Below are positions 15,120 to 51,068 of a DNA stretch of 64,000 bases, one piece after another (the first letter of the stretch is position 1; each line of letters starts with the position of its first letter). The notes below the pieces were generated by a model that saw nothing but the letters and a program-made list of their open reading frames with translations, did no database searches and was not told where the DNA came from. Made by a program: the position numbers and the translations under genes. Origin of the DNA: Sphingobacteriales bacterium (GTDB taxonomy: Bacteria; Bacteroidota; Bacteroidia; Chitinophagales; LD1); contig JADFDM010000009.1 of the NCBI GenBank assembly GCA_018262795.1, forward strand, positions 1-64,000. Reading direction: 5' to 3'.

Positions 15120-15314
15120 ATGAGGAAACTAATCATGGCATTAATCGTGTTCGGCATTTTAGGAATCGCTTCTTGCTCAAAATGCACTACTTGTTCACCT
15201 GCTCAAGGAGCCGACATTTCGGTATGCGATAAAGATTATAGCTCCGAAAGTGAGTATCAGGAGGCCGTAGATAGTTACGAAAGTGCTGGTTACAGTTGCT
15301 TCAATAGCCTATAA
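15120..15314 (+). CDS. Small Cys-rich lipoprotein
   Basis: The ATG at 15120 gives 64 residues with a lipoprotein signal (VFGILGIASC) and a short mature part with C-SKCTTC, a VCDKDY and a C-terminal Cys. It ends two bases into the atpC terminator hairpin region. It is the second gene after the helical protein and probably co-transcribed. Function is unknown. Confidence 0.65.
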   Translation: MRKLIMALIVFGILGIASCSKCTTCSPAQGADISVCDKDYSSESEYQEAVDSYESAGYSCFNSL

Positions 15315-15342
15315 AAAAAGCAGACTCCAACTGGAGCCTGCT
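15313..15342 (-). terminator. Terminator after atpC
   Basis: The arms 15319-15328 and 15333-15342 form a 10-bp stem with one wobble position and a 4-nt loop. On the minus strand it runs into T7 (15313-15319). It also sits at the end of the convergent lipoprotein gene. Confidence 0.75.
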
Positions 15343-15363
15343 ACAAATATTTTGCTTTGCTGT

Positions 15364-15612
15364 TTACTGAGCCATTCCGCCTTCAGCGCAAATAATTACT
15401 TTATTGTTGAGGCACTCTACAAACCCTCCGCTGATATCAAACTTTTTTTCTCCCTCCTTTGAACCTACGCGAACAGTACCATTTCCTAATGCAGAAATGA
15501 TAGGAGCGTGTTTATCCAATATTTCAAAAAGTCCGTCCACACCGGGTAGCATCACCATGGTTGCCTCTCCGCTGAACAGCTTTTTTTCGGGTGTGAGAAT
15601 TTCAAGTATCAT
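15364..15612 (-). CDS. atpC: ATP synthase F1 epsilon subunit (short form)
   Basis: The 82-residue protein carries the N-terminal beta-sandwich of epsilon (EILTPEKKLFSGEATMVMLPGVDGLFEILDKHAPII...LGNGTVRV). The C-terminal helical hairpin that inhibits ATP hydrolysis in E. coli is absent, which is usual for this phylum. It follows atpD by 84 bp on the minus strand. Confidence 0.93.
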   Translation of the reverse strand: MILEILTPEKKLFSGEATMVMLPGVDGLFEILDKHAPIISALGNGTVRVGSKEGEKKFDISGGFVECLNNKVIICAEGGMAQ

Positions 15613-15696
15613 TTTATTCAGTTGTCAGTTGTTCGTTGCCGGGTGTCAGGTTCTAAAGGGTTTCTGCAAACCGCCAACAATCAAAATTTAACGGTA

Positions 15697-17559
<1,863 letters not shown>

Positions 17560-43024: not shown

Positions 43025-46000
43025 TTATCGAAGTAGCGTGAGGGAGCCTTTGTAGTTGCGCACGACTCCATCTAAAAACATCGCCCTTATTTTATAAACA
43101 TAAACACCCAGAGGCATCTTTACGCCTTTATATATTCCATCCCATCCGTCCAATATGTTTTGGGAGGAATAAACCAATTCGCCCCAGCGATTGTACACCT
43201 CAATATCAATATCCCGAACATTGTTTCCAAAAACGTGAAACAGATCGTTCTTTCCATCTCCGTTGGGTGAAAATGCGGTGGGTATAAATACGGCATCATC
43301 TGCGCAAGAACTAAAGGTTACTTTGATAGAACCTGACACAGTGCAGTTGTTGCCATCCACAGCCGTGACCGTATAAGTGCCTGAAGTTTGCGGGGAAATA
43401 GTTTGAGAGGTTTCTCCGCTGCCCCAAGCGTAATTGGTATATCCGCTGCCCGCATCTAACACGACTAAAGAATCTTTGCAAGTAGAAACATCACTTCCTA
43501 AAACGATGGGACTGGTGGGTATTTCTGTTACAACAGCCGAAGCAGTACCTGAGCAACCCACATTACTTGCAGTCACGGTGTAAGTGCCCTGCGTTACTGT
43601 AATGTTATCGGCAGCACTGCCGGTGCTCCAGCTATAGGTGCTTCCTCCGGTGGCGGTTAGGGTAGTGCTGGCCCCCGGGCAGTAGCTCATTGCCCCGCTA
43701 ATGCTCACCGTTAAACTAGTAGATTCTGTGACGGTGGCCGAAGCCGTTCCGGTGCAGCCATTTGCATCGGTAGCGGTCACGTTGTAGGTTCCTTGTGTGA
43801 CTGTGATAGCGGCCGTGTTGGCGGTATTATCCCAAACATAAGCGGTACCTCCACCGGCAGTTAAAGTAGTGTTCTGGCCGGTGCAATAGGTTAAAGAACC
43901 GCTGATCGTTACCACCGGTGCCGCATTCTCTGTCACTGTCGCATCGGCTGTGGCGGTGCAATTGTTGGCATCGGTTCCGGTAACGGTGTAGCTTCCCTGC
44001 GTTACCGTGATGGCGGCAGTGGTACTGTTCGCGGCATCATTCCATACATAACCGGTACCCCCGTTGGCGGTGATTGTAGTATTGCCTCCGGCACAATAGC
44101 TGAGAGTGCCACTGATAGATATGTTGGGCGATGTTAATTCAGTGACCGAAGCAGAAGCGGTGCCGGTGCATCCGTTGGCATCGGTTCCTGTAACGGTATA
44201 ACTTCCTTGAGTTACCGTAATACTTGCAGTAGCGCTGTTGCCGGCATCGTTCCACACATAGCCGGTGCCACCGCTGGCGGTGAGGGTAGTATTTTGCCCG
44301 GGGCAGTAACTTAAATCACCGCTAATGCTTACCGGCAAAGTAGAAAGTTCTGTCACCGTAGCAAAAGCAGTATCGCTGCAATTGCTGGTATTTGTCACCA
44401 GCACCGCATAACTGCCTTGCGTCACCGTTACGCTGGCACTGTTTCCGATAATACTTACTCCATCTACCCAAACATAATTAGTGCCTCCACTGGCTGTAAG
44501 GGTGGTATTGCCACCGGTGCAATAACTGAGGTTGCCGCTAATAGAGGCCACCGGTACCGGTAATTGTGCCGCATTGCTAAAAGAGGTGCTGGCGGTAGAA
44601 GAGCAAGTGCCATCACTGGCAACTACCGTATAGCTGCTGCCGAGGGTCATCCCGCTAATCACTCCCCCTGCCCCTGCGGTAGGTCCTGTAGGGGTGAACT
44701 GATAGATGGCAGTCGCATTGTAATTAGAGATAGTGCTGCTGCCGTCTGCCGTGCAGGAAGGCGGAGTAGTCGTGATGGTAGGAACCGAAGGCGGCAGAGT
44801 AGCGGCTGCATTGCTGAATGAAGTGCTGGGGGCCGAAGGGCAAGTGCCATCATTTGCCACTACTGTATAATTAGTGCCGGTCACCATCCCGCTGATAGCA
44901 CCTCCTGCCCCTGCGGAAGGTCCCGTAGGAGTAAATTGATAAGTTTCAGCCGCATTGTAATTGCTGATAGCGCTGCTGCCATCGGCCGAACAAGTAGGTG
45001 GCGTAGTGGTAATAGTAGGAGTGGTAGGAACCGGAAATTGCGCTGCATTACTAAATGAAGTGCTGGCTGCCGAAGGGCAAGTGCCATCATTTGCCAGTAC
45101 CGTATAATTAGTGCCGAGAATCATTCCACTAATCACTCCACCGGCACCAACGGTAGGTCCCGTAGGAGTGAATTGATAAGTTAAAGCCGCATTGTAATTA
45201 CTGATAGTACTGCTGCCGTCTGCTGTGCAGGAAGCCGGAGTAGTGGCAATAGTTGGCACTGCCGGCACCGGTAATTGTGCCGCGATGCTGAAAGCGTTGC
45301 TGGGTGCCGAAGCACAACTTCCGACCCCTGATACCACCGTATAACTTGTTCCGGGAGTCATGCCGCTGATAAGTCCACCGGCTCCTGCCGTAGGGCCCGA
45401 AGGGGTGAAAACATAAGTAGCGCTTGCATCGTAATTTGTGATAGTACTGCTGCCACTTGCAGAGCAAGTGGCTGTTGTGGTCGAAACGTTGGGAGTTGTA
45501 GGGAGCGCAATGGTTGTGTTGTAAGTAATCAGAATACCTCCGGCAGCACCATTTCCGCCATCGCCATCGCCACCACCTGCGCCACCGCCACCGTACGAAT
45601 TGCCGGGGGCAGAATTACTGGCACCGCCCAATCCACCGGTGGGGCCGGCTCCTTTTCCTCCGGTTCCGCCACTGCCGCCACTGCCGCTATTCCCTGCTGC
45701 ACCGGAGGTGTTGGTAGAGCCGCCACTGGCACCGCCACCGGCACCGCCTGCGCCCACATTCCCGTTTCCTCCATAAAATCCACAAGTATTTCCGCGATCG
45801 CCTCTGGCACCTCCATTGGCAGTAAGAGATACGGAACCTCCACCGGCATCGGTGCCGCTAAAGGTGGTATTGCCACCGGCATTGCCGTTTGAGCCATTGC
45901 TGTTATCGCCACCATTGCCCCCTCCGCAACCACCCGCACCAATGCTATAGGTAAAAGAGGAACCGGGAGTTACGTTGATCGTGATAGTAGAGTAGCCACC

Positions 46001-46264
46001 GCCACCACCACCACCGCCACCGCGGGTGTTACATACTCCGCCATTACTACCGCCACCGCCACCGCCTGCACCACCACCTCCTCCGTGAATTACTATGGTA
46101 ACAGCCGTCACGTTACAAGGAACCGTCCATGTTCCGTTCACGGCACTGCCGCAACTGGCAGAACCGGGTAAAGTGACATCTTGCGCAAAAACTGCTACGA
46201 ACGAAAGCAGCCAAATTGCTACGGAGAAAAGTATCTCTTTTATAAAAGGGGACCCTCTAAACAT
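43025..46264 (-). CDS. Glycine-rich repetitive surface protein with T9SS type B C-terminal domain
   Basis: ATG 46264 gives 1079 residues. A frame to 46300 is rejected because it starts in the promoter. After the signal peptide (WLLSFVAVFAQ) comes a beta region, then a long Gly/Ala/Ser-rich stretch (residues ~60-240) with GGGGGAGGGGGG-type runs. Next are four ~70-residue repeats (CTADGSSTISNYNA...GVISGM...YTVVANDGTC), five ~70-residue repeats (ISGxLSYCxGxNTTLTASGG...TVTQGSYTV) and one diverged copy. The end (IPTAFSPNGDGKND...YKGSLTLLR) is the CHU_C domain. A secreted adhesin is inferred. Confidence 0.88.
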   Translation of the reverse strand: MFRGSPFIKEILFSVAIWLLSFVAVFAQDVTLPGSASCGSAVNGTWTVPCNVTAVTIVIHGGGGGAGGGGGGSNGGVCNTRGGGGGGGGGYSTITINVTPGSSFTYSIGAGGCGGGNGGDNSNGSNGNAGGNTTFSGTDAGGGSVSLTANGGARGDRGNTCGFYGGNGNVGAGGAGGGASGGSTNTSGAAGNSGSGGSGGTGGKGAGPTGGLGGASNSAPGNSYGGGGAGGGDGDGGNGAAGGILITYNTTIALPTTPNVSTTTATCSASGSSTITNYDASATYVFTPSGPTAGAGGLISGMTPGTSYTVVSGVGSCASAPSNAFSIAAQLPVPAVPTIATTPASCTADGSSTISNYNAALTYQFTPTGPTVGAGGVISGMILGTNYTVLANDGTCPSAASTSFSNAAQFPVPTTPTITTTPPTCSADGSSAISNYNAAETYQFTPTGPSAGAGGAISGMVTGTNYTVVANDGTCPSAPSTSFSNAAATLPPSVPTITTTPPSCTADGSSTISNYNATAIYQFTPTGPTAGAGGVISGMTLGSSYTVVASDGTCSSTASTSFSNAAQLPVPVASISGNLSYCTGGNTTLTASGGTNYVWVDGVSIIGNSASVTVTQGSYAVLVTNTSNCSDTAFATVTELSTLPVSISGDLSYCPGQNTTLTASGGTGYVWNDAGNSATASITVTQGSYTVTGTDANGCTGTASASVTELTSPNISISGTLSYCAGGNTTITANGGTGYVWNDAANSTTAAITVTQGSYTVTGTDANNCTATADATVTENAAPVVTISGSLTYCTGQNTTLTAGGGTAYVWDNTANTAAITVTQGTYNVTATDANGCTGTASATVTESTSLTVSISGAMSYCPGASTTLTATGGSTYSWSTGSAADNITVTQGTYTVTASNVGCSGTASAVVTEIPTSPIVLGSDVSTCKDSLVVLDAGSGYTNYAWGSGETSQTISPQTSGTYTVTAVDGNNCTVSGSIKVTFSSCADDAVFIPTAFSPNGDGKNDLFHVFGNNVRDIDIEVYNRWGELVYSSQNILDGWDGIYKGVKMPLGVYVYKIRAMFLDGVVRNYKGSLTLLR

Positions 46265-46297
46265 AATCTCAAATTGAACTATCAAATTTCGTACGTC

Positions 46298-46305
46298 CAA
46301 ATATA
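46298..46305 (-). promoter_or_regulatory. -7 element before the glycine-rich adhesin
   Basis: The minus strand reads TATATTTG, an exact TAnnTTTG match, 34 bp before the ATG at 46264. No clear TTG was found 18-23 nt upstream. Confidence 0.4.
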
Positions 46306-46516
46306 GAAAAACTTGCCATGCAGGGGATAGCTATTACTGATTAGCAATTAGCGATTACTAACTACTAATTACTCACTACCTATTACTAATAGCACTACCG
46401 TTTTCCCGTTCCATTAAAACACTATTAAAATCGGGTTGAACGCTGGTAGTGTTGGCGTGACTACTGTCGCTGGCCACGTGGCTGCTCTTACTGGTCCTGT
46501 GACTACTAACAGGCGG

Positions 46517-47146
46517 AACATTTTCACTGTGGCTAAGCATCTTCCCACTGCCAGTAAAAACATTTTCACTGTGGCTGTAAATCTTCCCACTGCCAGTAAA
46601 AACATTTTCACTGTGGCTGTAAATCTTCCCACTGCCAGTAAAAACATTTTCACTGTGGCTGTAAATCTTCCCACTGCCAGTAAAAACATTTTCACTGTGG
46701 CTGTAAATCTTCCCACTGCCAGTAAAAACATTTTCACTGTGGCTAAACATCTTCCCACTGCCAGTAAAAATATTTTCACTGTGGCTAAACATCTTCCCAC
46801 TGCCAGTAAAAATATTTTCACTGTGGCTGTAAATCTTCCCACTGCCAGTAAAAACATTTTCACTGTGGCTAAGCATCTTCCCACTGTCAGTAAAAACATT
46901 TTCACTGTGGCTAAGAATCTTCCCACTGCCAGTAAAAACATTTTCACTGTGGCTGTAAATCTTCCCACTGCCAGTAAAAACATTTTCACTGCGGCTGTAA
47001 ATCTTCCCACTGCCAGTAAAAACATTTTCACTGTGGCTAAGAATCTTCCCACTGCCAGTAAAAACATTTTCACTGTGGCTGTAAATCTTCCCACTGCCAG
47101 TAAAAATATTTTCACTGTGGCTAAAAATCTTTTTACTGCCAATTGT
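46517..47146. repeat. 15-copy tandem array of a 42-bp hairpin unit
   Basis: Fifteen head-to-tail units of exactly 42 bp run from 46517 to 47146, with a decayed sixteenth after that. Copies differ by a few substitutions, mostly at one position pair (GTAAAT, AAGCAT, AAACAT, AAGAAT). Each unit contains CAGTAAAA-ACA-TTTTCACTG, which pairs over eight bases with one bulged C. Because 42 is a multiple of three and the unit lacks stops, several frames stay open on both strands, but none has an ATG before the array. Just upstream (46331-46389) is an AT-rich stretch with four loose ATTAC copies. Confidence 0.95.
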
Positions 47147-47178
47147 AATGTTATGACTGCGGGAAAGAATGCTTCGCT

Positions 47179-47220
47179 GTCCTTAGTCTGAAGCGGAGTC
47201 AGAGCCGAGGGACTAAGGAC
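47179..47220. repeat. Inverted-repeat element upstream of the RAYT remnant
   Basis: GTCCTTAGTC (47179-47188) and GACTAAGGAC (47211-47220) form a perfect 10-bp stem around 22 nt. The element ends 40 bp before the start of the transposase remnant. REP-type palindromes next to a RAYT gene are the expected substrates of these enzymes, so it is a candidate REP-like end. Confidence 0.7.
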
Positions 47221-47260
47221 TTGAACGCGAAAAGCTAACTCTCGTTTATATTTAATCCTG

Positions 47261-47547
47261 ATGAGCAAAGCAGGCTACAAAATTCGAAATAACGAAGGCG
47301 TTTACTTTGTAAGTTTTGCCGTAGTAGAGTGGGTGTATGTCTTTAGCCGTCAGCAATACCGCGACACCGTACTATAAAGTTTTGTCAGCAACAGAAAGGA
47401 TTATTGCTGCATGCATGGTGTATAATGAGTAGCCATCCTCATTTAATTGCTTCGGCACGCGATAAAAACCTGAGCGATATACTGCGTGACTTTAAAAAAT
47501 TTGCGAGCAGCATTTTTGCAGACTTATTTTCGTTTTCCGTTAACTAA
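47261..47547 (+). pseudogene. Decayed REP-associated tyrosine transposase (RAYT, IS200/IS605-like Y1 family)
   Basis: The first part (47261-47377) encodes MSKAGYKIRNNEGVYFVSFA and WVYVFSRQQYRDTVL and then hits TAA. The homologous reading continues in another frame from 47380 to 47547: FCQQQKGLLLHAWCIMSSHPHL and NLSDILRDFKKFASS, then a stop. HAWCIM...H-x-HLI is the HUH active-site region of RAYT proteins, here HPH. The C-terminal half is missing. A small indel plus truncation means it is inactive. Full-length relatives have roughly 180-200 residues. Confidence 0.85.
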
Positions 47548-47603
47548 TAAAATAGGAGGCGACTATCCTGCGGTGCAGGCGACCAATGTTTGCGCAGTCG
47601 CGC

Positions 47604-48680
47604 CTACTTGGGGGCTTTCATCAATAAGTAAAGCCCCAGTGATGCAAATATCAAATTGGGAATCCACACGGCAATTACCGGTGGGAGCGAAGCATTGGTG
47701 GCAAAGGTGATAGAGAATTTCATAATCACTTCGTACAGTGCGCTCATGCCTATGCCCAGCACTAAGTGCCAGCCCAGCCCTCCGCGCACCTTGCGCGCAG
47801 CCACGCTCACCCCGATTAAGGTGAGGATATAAATACTGAAAGCGGAGGCCGTTCTGCGATAGCGCTCCACCTCGTAAAACTCAATATCGGGCTGCCCGGA
47901 CTGATACATGAATTGGATATACTCCTTCAGTTCGGGAGTCGTCATCTCCTCTTTGTAATGAGCGGTAAAAGAAAAGTCGGAGGGCACAAAATTGAATGCG
48001 CTATCCATCTCGGCTCCCGAAGTAATGCGGTCGTGATCGCCATTCAATTCGCGGATATAATAATTGCTTACATGCCATTTCTTCGTTTCCTTATTCCAAT
48101 CAATTCTTTCGGAGCGCAGTTTATAAATCAGTTTGCCGTCTTTAAATTTATCAATGGAAAATTTATAGCCACTGCCATCCGAAGGCTTGTAGTTTTCGAT
48201 GTAAATGATAGTGCCGGGAGCTATGGTTCGATGAAAATTGTAACGCATGCCTTCAAAGGGTTTGCTCACGTACGTTTTTTCAAACACAATGCGCTGGTGA
48301 TTGGCAAAAGGGACAAAATAGTGATTGCCGATAAAGAAAATACCGGCCAAAATGGAAGCTCCTACAAAGTAGGGCCACAGCATTCGGTAAAAGCTGGTGC
48401 CGCTGTTCAGAATGGCGATAATCTCGGAGCGCTCGGCCAGTTGAGAGGTGAAGAAAATGACCGAAACCAACACAAAGAAAGGCCCGATAAGTGAAGTGAT
48501 GTAAGGGATAAAATAAATGTAATACTGAAACACCACCACCTTTACCGAAGCGTGATTTTCCACAAAGGCATCAATCTTTTCGCTGAGGTCAATCACGATA
48601 GTAACCCCCAGCAACAGCGCCATGATAAACACGAAGGTGCCGAGAAATTTGCCGAGTATGTACCAATCGAGTTTTTTCAT
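47604..48680 (-). CDS. LptF/LptG-family permease (YjgP/YjgQ)
   Basis: The 358-residue membrane protein has two helix groups (residues ~10-120 and ~270-355) around a periplasmic beta-jellyroll domain, the LptF/LptG layout. MKKLDWYILGKFLGTFVFIMALLLGVTIVIDL is a typical start. Together with LptB it would extract lipopolysaccharide from the inner membrane. Whether this is the F or G partner is not clear. It lies 40 bp after tgt on the same strand, a common pairing in Bacteroidota. Confidence 0.9.
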   Translation of the reverse strand: MKKLDWYILGKFLGTFVFIMALLLGVTIVIDLSEKIDAFVENHASVKVVVFQYYIYFIPYITSLIGPFFVLVSVIFFTSQLAERSEIIAILNSGTSFYRMLWPYFVGASILAGIFFIGNHYFVPFANHQRIVFEKTYVSKPFEGMRYNFHRTIAPGTIIYIENYKPSDGSGYKFSIDKFKDGKLIYKLRSERIDWNKETKKWHVSNYYIRELNGDHDRITSGAEMDSAFNFVPSDFSFTAHYKEEMTTPELKEYIQFMYQSGQPDIEFYEVERYRRTASAFSIYILTLIGVSVAARKVRGGLGWHLVLGIGMSALYEVIMKFSITFATNASLPPVIAVWIPNLIFASLGLYLLMKAPK

Positions 48681-48720
48681 TCCGTCTTGCTGATTCTTGT
48701 CGCGCTTTTTTAAGTAAAGG

Positions 48721-49851
48721 CTATAACCTCGTCATCAACTGCTTTGCCATTCTGTTTTTCCACGCATCAAACGTGCCTTCGATAATTTTCTTGCGAGCCT
48801 CTTTCACCAACCACAAATAAAGGCTAAGGTTGTTGATAGAAGCTATTTGCCCGGCTAAGAATTCTTTTTCGTGCATCAGGTGGCGCAGAAAGGCTTTGCT
48901 GCTGGTGCGCATCATTTCGCAATCGCTTTCTGCATCAATCGGGGAGAAATCATCGCGCCATTTTTCATTTTTAATATTGAGGATACCCTGCCGGGTAAAT
49001 AACATTCCGTTGCGCGCATTTCGCGTTGGCATCACACAGTCAAACATATCAATACCGAGCGCAATGCCTTCGAGTATGTTGGCAGGCGTGCCCACTCCCA
49101 TCAGGTAACGCGGCTTGTCGGCCGGTAGTATGCTGCACACCAGATCGGTCATTTCATACATGTCCTCTATCGGCTCGCCCACGCTCAAGCCGCCAATGGC
49201 ATTGCCTTCCATTTCCATCGAGGCAATAAACTCTGCCGACTCTTTGCGCAAATCGCGGTACACACTACCCTGCACTATCGGAAAAAGAGTTTGCGAATAG
49301 CCATAAGTACATTCCGTTTCCTGAAATCGGTTCACGCAGCGCTGCAACCAGCGATGCGTTAAGTGCATAGAGTTTTTCGCATACGCAAAGTCGCAGGGAT
49401 AAGGGGTGCATTCATCAAAAGCCATGATGATGTCGGCTCCTATTTTTCGCTGTATATCTATGACCAGTTCGGGGGTAAAGAAATGTTTGGAGCCGTCAAT
49501 GTGACTGCGGAACTCCGCTCCGTCTTCTTTTATCTTTCGAATGGCCGACAAGGAATACACTTGATAGCCTCCGCTGTCGGTCAGTATAGGTCCTTGCCAT
49601 CCGTTGAACCGGTGAAGGCCTCCGGCTTTCTCCAGCACATCAATGCCGGGGCGCAAGTAAAGGTGATAGGTGTTGGAAAGAATAATCTGTGCTTGAATCA
49701 GGTCGCGCAGTTCGTGCAGGTGCACCGCTTTCACCGCACCGAGGGTTCCCACCGGCATAAACATAGGCGTTTCAATCCGCCCGTGGTCGGTCATTATTTC
49801 ACCTGCGCGCGCTTTGCTTTCTTTATCACCGGCTGTTAAGCTAAACTTCAT
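48721..49851 (-). CDS. tgt: Queuine tRNA-ribosyltransferase
   Basis: The 376-residue enzyme exchanges guanine-34 for preQ1 in tRNAs with GUN anticodons. Seen are GRIETPMFMPVGTLG, LTDSGGYQVYSL, the AFDECTPYP loop, GGLSVGEP, YLMGVGTP and the nucleophile Asp region DMFDCVMPTRNARNG. The zinc motif C-x-C-x2-C of other bacteria is incomplete: the matching segment DCEMMRTSSKAFLRHL keeps one Cys and the His. It precedes the LptF/G gene. Confidence 0.94.
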   Translation of the reverse strand: MKFSLTAGDKESKARAGEIMTDHGRIETPMFMPVGTLGAVKAVHLHELRDLIQAQIILSNTYHLYLRPGIDVLEKAGGLHRFNGWQGPILTDSGGYQVYSLSAIRKIKEDGAEFRSHIDGSKHFFTPELVIDIQRKIGADIIMAFDECTPYPCDFAYAKNSMHLTHRWLQRCVNRFQETECTYGYSQTLFPIVQGSVYRDLRKESAEFIASMEMEGNAIGGLSVGEPIEDMYEMTDLVCSILPADKPRYLMGVGTPANILEGIALGIDMFDCVMPTRNARNGMLFTRQGILNIKNEKWRDDFSPIDAESDCEMMRTSSKAFLRHLMHEKEFLAGQIASINNLSLYLWLVKEARKKIIEGTFDAWKNRMAKQLMTRL

Positions 49852-49961
49852 AACTGCGCGAATATATCACAAATGACCATTGACGACAGACGGTTATATG
49901 AGGATAACTTTCAGCTAAAAGAAAGCGGCAGCTACGCGCTATTTTTTACTCTTGCAGCCGA

Positions 49962-51068
49962 ATGGAAATGGTGTTTTGGTTATTTATTGCCAGTGCTGCG
50001 CTACAGGTTTTGTATTACCTGCTGGTGTTCGCCCGGCTTAATTTTGTAAGAGGGATGAACGGTGTGTCAGAGAATCTTCCTCCGGTATCGGTCGTCATTT
50101 GTGCTCACAATGAAGCAGAGAATCTGAAGAAATATTTGAAAGTAGTGCTCATACAACAGTATCCGGTGTTTGAAGTGATATTGGTCAATGACCGCAGTAC
50201 CGATGCGACCATTGACGTGATCGTTGATTTTTATAAGCGAAATACCAACGTGCGCATTCTTAATATTTTGCCCGAAGAAGTGAATGCTTATGCCGGAAAA
50301 AAGCAGGCACTGATGAAAGGCATAGCACTGGCGCAGTACGAAACCATTGTAGTGACCGATGCCGATTGCCGCCCCGCATCTACACATTGGCTTGCCAAAC
50401 TGGTAGGAACTTACATGGGCAACACCCAAATAGTGCTGGGTTATTCCCCTTTCGAAAAGCGGAAAGGGTTTTTGAACAAACTCATTCGCTACGAAAATCT
50501 AATGACGGCTCTTCAGTATCTGGGCTTTGCCAAAGCGGGGATGCCTTATATGGGGGTGGGGAGAAATCTTTCGTATAAGAAAAGCGTGTTTGCCAACTTT
50601 GACGGTTTTGAAAAGCATCGCGAATTGCCCACCGGTGATGATGATTTGTTGGTGAATGCCATGGCAAAGGCAGGAAGCACAGAAATTTGTTTAGATAAAG
50701 ATGCCTTTATGTTTACCCCTGCGGCAACTACATTTAGGGAATGGGTGAATCGCAAACGGAGACATTTGCGCTCGGGCTTTCGTTACAAATGGTATCACCG
50801 CCTCATTTTGTTTCTATTTGCACTGAGCGGCTTTCTGTTCTATTCCACTTTTGTAATTTTACTCAGCGGGCTTTGGATGTTAAAATATGTGCTGCTTGTA
50901 TTTTTAGCAACGCTGGTTTTGAAAATGCTCTCTGTTTTCAGAGTATATAAAAAATTAGCGGCACCGGATTTGATTTTTATTACACCCCTATTAGATGTTG
51001 CATTTACAGGCTATCTGCTGATAGTATTTTTCTTATTATTGCTTAAACCGAAAAAAAGTTGGACTTAA
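49962..51068 (+). CDS. Membrane-bound glycosyltransferase family 2
   Basis: The 368-residue protein has an N-terminal membrane helix and a GT-A domain with PPVSVVICAHNEAENL, VNDRSTDAT, the metal-binding VVTDADCRPAS and the end motif VNRKRRHLRSGFRYKW in the place of QxxRW. Two or three C-terminal helices follow. It probably makes or extends a membrane-linked saccharide. The sigma factor gene overlaps its end by 10 bp. Confidence 0.88.
   Translation: MEMVFWLFIASAALQVLYYLLVFARLNFVRGMNGVSENLPPVSVVICAHNEAENLKKYLKVVLIQQYPVFEVILVNDRSTDATIDVIVDFYKRNTNVRILNILPEEVNAYAGKKQALMKGIALAQYETIVVTDADCRPASTHWLAKLVGTYMGNTQIVLGYSPFEKRKGFLNKLIRYENLMTALQYLGFAKAGMPYMGVGRNLSYKKSVFANFDGFEKHRELPTGDDDLLVNAMAKAGSTEICLDKDAFMFTPAATTFREWVNRKRRHLRSGFRYKWYHRLILFLFALSGFLFYSTFVILLSGLWMLKYVLLVFLATLVLKMLSVFRVYKKLAAPDLIFITPLLDVAFTGYLLIVFFLLLLKPKKSWT

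Follow-up and report, generated by a model that had tools for sequence, protein, structure and literature searches.

A 42-bp tandem array in a Sphingobacteriales genome as a probable intergenic satellite of a class with periods in multiples of 21 bp

Ordinary bacterial minisatellites and VNTRs are tandem arrays whose copies turn over and whose centre is homogenised, and their periods normally differ from locus to locus. BrickBuilt of Porphyromonas gingivalis is, in the sections of the published account drawn on here, a MITE/minisatellite with a 23-nt intergenic unit, a leader and a tail, and inverted-repeat ends (PMC4596501). The TAACTGA heptamer repeats of Beggiatoaceae, Cyanobacteria and some Bacteroidetes, together with the VNTRs of Flavobacterium psychrophilum, demonstrate, on the portions of the two reports consulted, that fixed-period repeats exist in this phylum (PMC4679880, PMC4501049). 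Titles and abstracts listed in searches of the open-licence literature, preprints being outside their scope, contained no report of a 21-bp rule for bacterial intergenic arrays. Here we describe an array that we judge, with a probability of about 0.7, to be a non-coding intergenic satellite belonging to a class that holds its period at 21 bp or a multiple of it, most often 42 bp, while the unit sequence is free; such arrays would grow in steps of 21 or 42 bp and be copied to new loci. The class appears to be patchily distributed among bacteria.

The array lies at positions 46517–47131 of the window, by which we mean the whole 64,000-nucleotide stretch of DNA that was analysed, and the 15-copy 42-bp array claimed in an earlier note on this sequence is real: TRF gives a period of 42 bp and 14.6 copies with 94% matches, 0% indels and a score of 1041. 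Head-to-tail copies of a unit between 10 and 100 bp make it a minisatellite or VNTR in form; a CRISPR array was ruled out, as the units abut with no spacers between them. Tiling by 21 resolved each unit into two 21-bp subunits (consensus halves AACATTTTCACTGTGGCTGTA and AATCTTCCCACTGCCAGTAAA) that have diverged from each other, with a lag-21 identity of 0.52, and the same tiling, judged by eye, continued in phase into degenerate 21-bp units on the left (about 46451–46516) and right (about 47132–47185). The recent expansion proposed in the earlier note thus holds as regards expansion, the centre being homogenised, but gives only half of the picture, since the edges are degenerate. The array is intergenic, between a glycine-rich protein gene with a CHU_C type IX secretion signal domain (43025–46300; Pfam) and an adjoining lptF/lptG-family permease gene (47604–48680; Pfam PF03739, E 4e-72), both on the minus strand. 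A single-copy assembly artefact is unlikely, because the units are not identical copies, homologous arrays occur at three loci and a single-contig genome (G415) contains a 42-bp array; the exact copy number may nevertheless be wrong. Other repeats were seen in this neighbourhood: a dispersed, REP-like palindrome of 46 bp right beside the array (47176–47221; arms CCTTAGTC and GACTAAGG) with 14 more matches in the genome; 7-bp repeats (ACTAATT-like) to its left at 46336–46391; and 237-bp repeats within the glycine-rich protein gene at 44556–45455. Among the short repeats counted, periods of 7, 14 and 28 were far commoner than 6 and 8.

Two homologues of the window array are present in the same genome, on contigs C18 and C11, the latter with 28.8 copies of a 21-bp unit (TRF). 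In the tiling, the first left-edge unit of the window array resembles the left-edge unit on C18, and a G+C-rich 21-mer subfamily is common to the left edges of both homologues; with about 120 bases of flank per side compared, similarity was confined to the arrays and their edges. A DNA search for this family in 149 genomes, among no more than three candidates scored per genome, found it in its own genome only (1/149). By the tgt protein, the best match among named relatives is a Chitinophagales MAG, with 76% identity. Array families occupy 2 to 8 loci: the window family is at three loci of this genome, another family is at two (L054 and C4), and one in G009 is at eight, of which six have flanks in common and two (L284 and L287) share the array only. 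The G009 family is a dispersed BrickBuilt-like element with a 42-bp array inside (L074, about 15166–15806, and L280–L287). Beyond families, array sequences were mostly unrelated, with 3.2% of 1081 pairs among 47 arrays at z > 3 and the strongest similarities between family members within one genome. All 15 congener loci with a 1500-base flank beyond lptG lack sequence like the window array, as does a sixteenth whose flank covers 522 bases, in keeping with fast turnover. On C18 (L002, 1520–1813) the array stops about 70 bp before the likely ATG of the next gene, and a mechanical ORF call fuses the two. Arrays were often at contig ends (L201, L203, L239, L244 and several matches of the profile search described below); they therefore probably break assemblies, and their true lengths may be larger.

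A profile search of 149 genomes with the plus-frame protein of the array, a method that favours period 21, gave matches in 27 genomes, its own included. At 26 of the 30 loci TRF found an array of period 21k (21, 42, 63, 84 or 126), mostly of unrelated sequence; L035, L037, L045 and L046 were without an array, and L033 has the appearance of a genuine protein repeat. The same biased query over 296 genomes of the phylum gave matches in 22, and 18 of the 26 loci examined hold an array whose period is 21k and whose copy number is 2.5 or more (TRF; coding ones not filtered out). Since the search favours period 21, we sampled 1.61 Mb of genome stretches that depend on it less, from seven array-bearing genomes (G000, G004, G009, G017, G039, G069 and G079); the stretches of G000 and G009 lie partly on contigs with known matches, and the others are the first contigs by number, skipping C4 of G017, whose array was already in hand. 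Arrays were counted if they had at least 2.7 copies, a period of 10–150 and a TRF score of at least 80, and were non-coding by a simple open-frame rule, which excluded another 10 arrays (5 with a period of 21k). The period was 21k in 40 of the 44 arrays so counted, and in 27 of 31 once overlaps with profile-search matches had been removed, a removal that mends the bias in the choice of stretches only partly. The exceptions had periods of 22, 28, 41 and 82, and the period-41 array has a 42-letter consensus. Outside the counted stretches, the genome of the window array has a further exception, a 41-bp array on contig C15 (L004, 612–825), and, at loci found via a short dispersed sequence matching on both strands, arrays of periods 294 (L290, 618–1888) and 126 (L293, 1813–2264), both multiples of 21 (coding ones not filtered out).

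For comparison, 1.47 Mb was assembled from stretches of G002, G005, G006, G008, G018, G020 and G094 and from 80 tgt loci across the Bacteroidota; this set is array-poor and not empty, as G005, G008 and G094 have matches in the profile search. Among arrays of at least four copies, 28 of 34 in the array-bearing sample had a period of 21k versus none of four in the comparison sample, and two-copy repeats of period 21 numbered 26 and 5 respectively. The rule was also visible without TRF in the lag spectrum of 370 kb of G009, where lag 21 was found at 9 places and lag 42 at 23, while the average over other lags not divisible by 3 was 0.11; there were none at lags 19, 20, 22, 23, 40 and 44, and 2 each at lags 41 and 43. 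In the comparison set, lag 42 was found at 3 places both in the order-level stretches (532 kb; mean of other lags 0.21–0.44) and in the tgt loci (933 kb; 0.29–0.62), so that the rule is present there weakly if at all. Sub-structure of 3 x 7 bp was rejected, as no 7-bp sub-period was detected in the 42 units analysed that have a period of 21 or 42 (z −1.8).

The phase of the arrays tends to extend past their borders: of 412 blocks of 42 bp lying 43–210 bp beyond the TRF edges, 72 had their best match to the array in exact phase, with 19.6 expected (P 2e-21). Offset −1 was also raised beyond the edges, at 41 of 516 versus 116 at offset 0, and 1-bp shifts are therefore tolerated to some degree. 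Inside 51 arrays there were 5 indels versus 1056 substitutions, three arrays with a 41- or 43-letter consensus having been left out; this depletion is suggestive only, because the flank control from the G009 element (4 indels versus 188 substitutions) is not clearly different. The arrays used for these tests, and for the dyad, variant and codon-phase tests below, were picked by period and score, with only two known coding ones removed, so that a few of them lie within open frames.

A period in common could reflect shared descent only, with one ancestral 21-bp array spreading through the phylum, its sequence being lost and its period being kept passively by unequal crossing-over. The copying of families to 2–8 loci and the tendency of flanks to remain in phase are in keeping with this, but most pairs of arrays are without similarity, and occurrence is patchy, with matches in 27 of the 149 relatives and in 22 of the 296 genomes across the phylum by a search favouring period 21; passive inheritance should, moreover, have let other periods arise over such divergence. 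We regard descent alone as an unlikely explanation.

Selection may hold the phase. Iterons and plasmid centromeres are arrays bound by protein in a phased manner, and one or more proteins might coat or bridge these arrays, for example as chromosome anchors, with a single protomer or dimer seated on the same DNA face every 21 bp. Degenerate edge units that stay in phase are in keeping with such sites, as is symmetry: a significant dyad (p < 0.05 against dinucleotide shuffles) was present in 13 of 26 42-bp units, and the window unit has one at p 0.04 against shuffled units. No dyad at this level was found in 16 units of 21 bp, however, and the different arrays of one genome are mostly unrelated in sequence, so that one sequence-specific protein cannot read all of them; array density in the sampled stretches also varies strongly between congeners. 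Binding by protein is an unlikely account of the class.

The stem-loop claimed in the earlier note is present, carrying one bulge on the plus strand by direct reading of the unit. Minus-strand RNA of three window units folds at z −4.1 against ordinary dinucleotide shuffles, although such shuffling breaks up the repetition as well; when the control is a tandem of shuffled units, the window array is at +0.3 (plus) and −1.6 (minus), and its hairpin alone is therefore unremarkable. Over 51 arrays, tandem units on average folded better than shuffled ones, the mean z being −1.1 for both strands; 19 arrays scored below −2 on one strand or both, and 1 above +2. The 21-bp arrays had a mean of 0.0. Either expansion is aided by hairpins, or the two 21-bp halves together are recognised as a dyad.

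In the satellite reading that we prefer, unequal exchange or slippage would lengthen and shorten arrays 21 or 42 bp at a time, a turnover that would homogenise the array centre, and an array would occasionally be copied to a new locus. Twenty-one base pairs make about two helical turns (2 x 10.5 bp), and no smaller whole number of bases gives whole turns; the step may be 21 bp because only repeats on the same face of the helix duplicate efficiently or are bound in register. As to what keeps the phase, we slightly prefer a mutational process over a bound protein. Support for DNA curvature or a helical idea was mixed: the 10.5-bp harmonic was below shuffles for W (z −2.4) and AA/TT (z −1.6), and above them for A alone (3.0) and A3/T3 (2.9). 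A bolder form of the helical idea, which we find possible but doubtful, is that geometry and not sequence generates or marks satellites, any intergenic sequence repeating every two helical turns being eligible via a ruler-like duplication machinery or a helix-phased scaffold. If true, this would provide a bacterial counterpart of eukaryotic satellites with a nucleosome-set unit length.

Candidate machinery was sought by presence and absence in the 149 relatives, a rough test given that its 27 genomes with profile matches stem from the search favouring period 21, with an array at 26 of 30 loci. Cas1 was found in 10 of these 27 genomes versus 44 of the 122 without profile matches (Fisher p 1.0), and RVT_1 in 7 of 27 versus 42 of 122 (p 0.50), neither being associated with the arrays. 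The REP/RAYT system was rejected: array-rich G079 is without a match to Y1_Tnp (PF01797), though 114 of the 149 genomes have one, and the genome of the window array has two. Plasmid candidates amounted to two weak matches, both under other proteins. On contig C31 of G052 (L032, 1502–1978) a 42/84-bp array begins about 40 bp past the last repeat of a CRISPR array (46–1463; 36-bp repeats, mostly every 66 bp), and C31 also carries a Cas1 gene.

We also considered whether the array is a repetitive protein gene, with 7 or 14 residues per unit and a fold such as a beta-roll dictating the 21- or 42-bp period. Three frames had been claimed to remain open, and stop counts over the array bear this out (0, 8 and 21 in the plus frames; 0, 0 and 23 in the minus frames), one plus and two minus frames being open. 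The earlier note had seen no ATG ahead of the array; a 251-codon plus frame (46436–47191) and a 284-codon minus frame (46414–47268) have TTG starts, at 46436 and 47268 respectively, and for the other minus frame, of 166 codons (46376–46876), the only ATG lies within the array. The two TTG-started frames, with no synonymous excess and no Pfam match above cut-off, were judged not to be genes. Synonymous changes had been taken in the earlier note to favour a TTG-started protein on the plus strand, but that frame has 2 synonymous and 5 non-synonymous distinct variants versus 2.2 and 4.8 expected if those changes are shifted to other columns; both open minus frames have 1 synonymous variant of 7, versus 2.0 and 1.8 expected. 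The doubt about coding voiced in that note is thereby upheld, as no open frame of the array has a synonymous excess between copies.

Across the analysed arrays the result was the same. Their 172 open frames contained 662 synonymous, 1868 non-synonymous and 84 stop variants versus 670.1, 1841.3 and 102.3 expected; the spread of z was 0.96, as it would be without selection, and no single frame stands out. Heterogeneity between codon phases reached p < 0.05 in only 2 of 50 arrays, variation not being focused on one codon position, and neither test gave a sign of purifying selection on codons. The deficit of stop-creating variants (84 versus 102), a slight excess of open frames over dinucleotide shuffles (180 versus 164.8 ± 5.6, with 4 of 300 shuffles reaching 180) and a weak 3-bp harmonic of purines (z 2.4) are a weak trace of coding, insufficient to call the arrays genes.

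Pfam scans covered 25 translations, of which two were of the neighbouring genes and 23 of array frames. The 166-codon frame matches the beta-roll family LbR_Ice_bind above the curated cut-off of 30 bits, with 57.5 bits for the minus frame of the array alone, the top Pfam score among the array frames scanned; the C11 homologue has an ATG-started frame of 283 codons, and a minus frame of this homologue matches the same family below cut-off, at 27.2 bits. Against this, the C18 homologue has one stop in the matching frame and the tiled edge units of the L289 array contain stop codons. Frames of other arrays also give odd, if weaker, matches above cut-off (a frog antimicrobial peptide at 31 bits, YqbF at 36.7 and tape-measure TMP_N at 38.3). 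Because the codons of the frame are unconstrained and other arrays behave likewise, we judge the LbR_Ice_bind match to be a brief chance similarity that the repeat has multiplied. The window array is very probably not a gene; coding is possible but unlikely, and a period dictated by a protein fold is highly improbable. Should the period rule hold genome-wide, repetitive 'ORFs' of Bacteroidota whose units have 7 or 14 residues may represent satellites instead of genes.

A transcribed array of 42-nt RNA hairpins, acting as a protein sponge, attenuator or decay barrier, is very unlikely: units do on average fold better than shuffled ones, but the window array and the 21-bp arrays do not share in this, the excess may merely reflect hairpin-assisted expansion, no Rfam family was found in 44000–50000 (best E 0.41, 23 bits versus a gathering score of 70), and there were no promoter- or terminator-like sites beyond shuffles with a sigma-70 consensus, which fits Bacteroidota poorly.

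Should the period rule hold genome-wide, it would amount to an unnoticed constraint on non-coding tandem DNA in these bacteria, and it raises the question of whether the duplication of short DNA in bacteria has a two-turn ruler or whether a protein scaffold needs helically phased repeats.

Set beside ordinary minisatellites and VNTRs, the arrays described here are alike in being tandem, in their probable copy turnover and in their homogenised centre, and unlike them in that one period rule spans unrelated loci. From what is given in the portions of the reports consulted, the heptamer repeats resemble them as abundant intergenic direct repeats of patchy occurrence, but have a 7-bp unit of one fixed sequence, a sub-period absent here (PMC4679880); the F. 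psychrophilum VNTRs resemble them as unrelated, mostly intergenic units with one period (8 of the 12 listed are of 7 bp), but the units listed are of 4–9 bp, and neither '21 bp' nor '42 bp' occurs in the text (PMC4501049). BrickBuilt is the closest relative among those found. In the sections of its description used here it, too, is an intergenic non-coding tandem array of the Bacteroidota, present at many loci, some copies having a common leader and tail, and the G009 element much resembles it; it differs in being one family with a 23-nt unit, where here many unrelated units of 21 or 42 bp occur per genome, and probably in its leader and tail, no common flank having been found for the window family outside the 21-bp register (PMC4596501).
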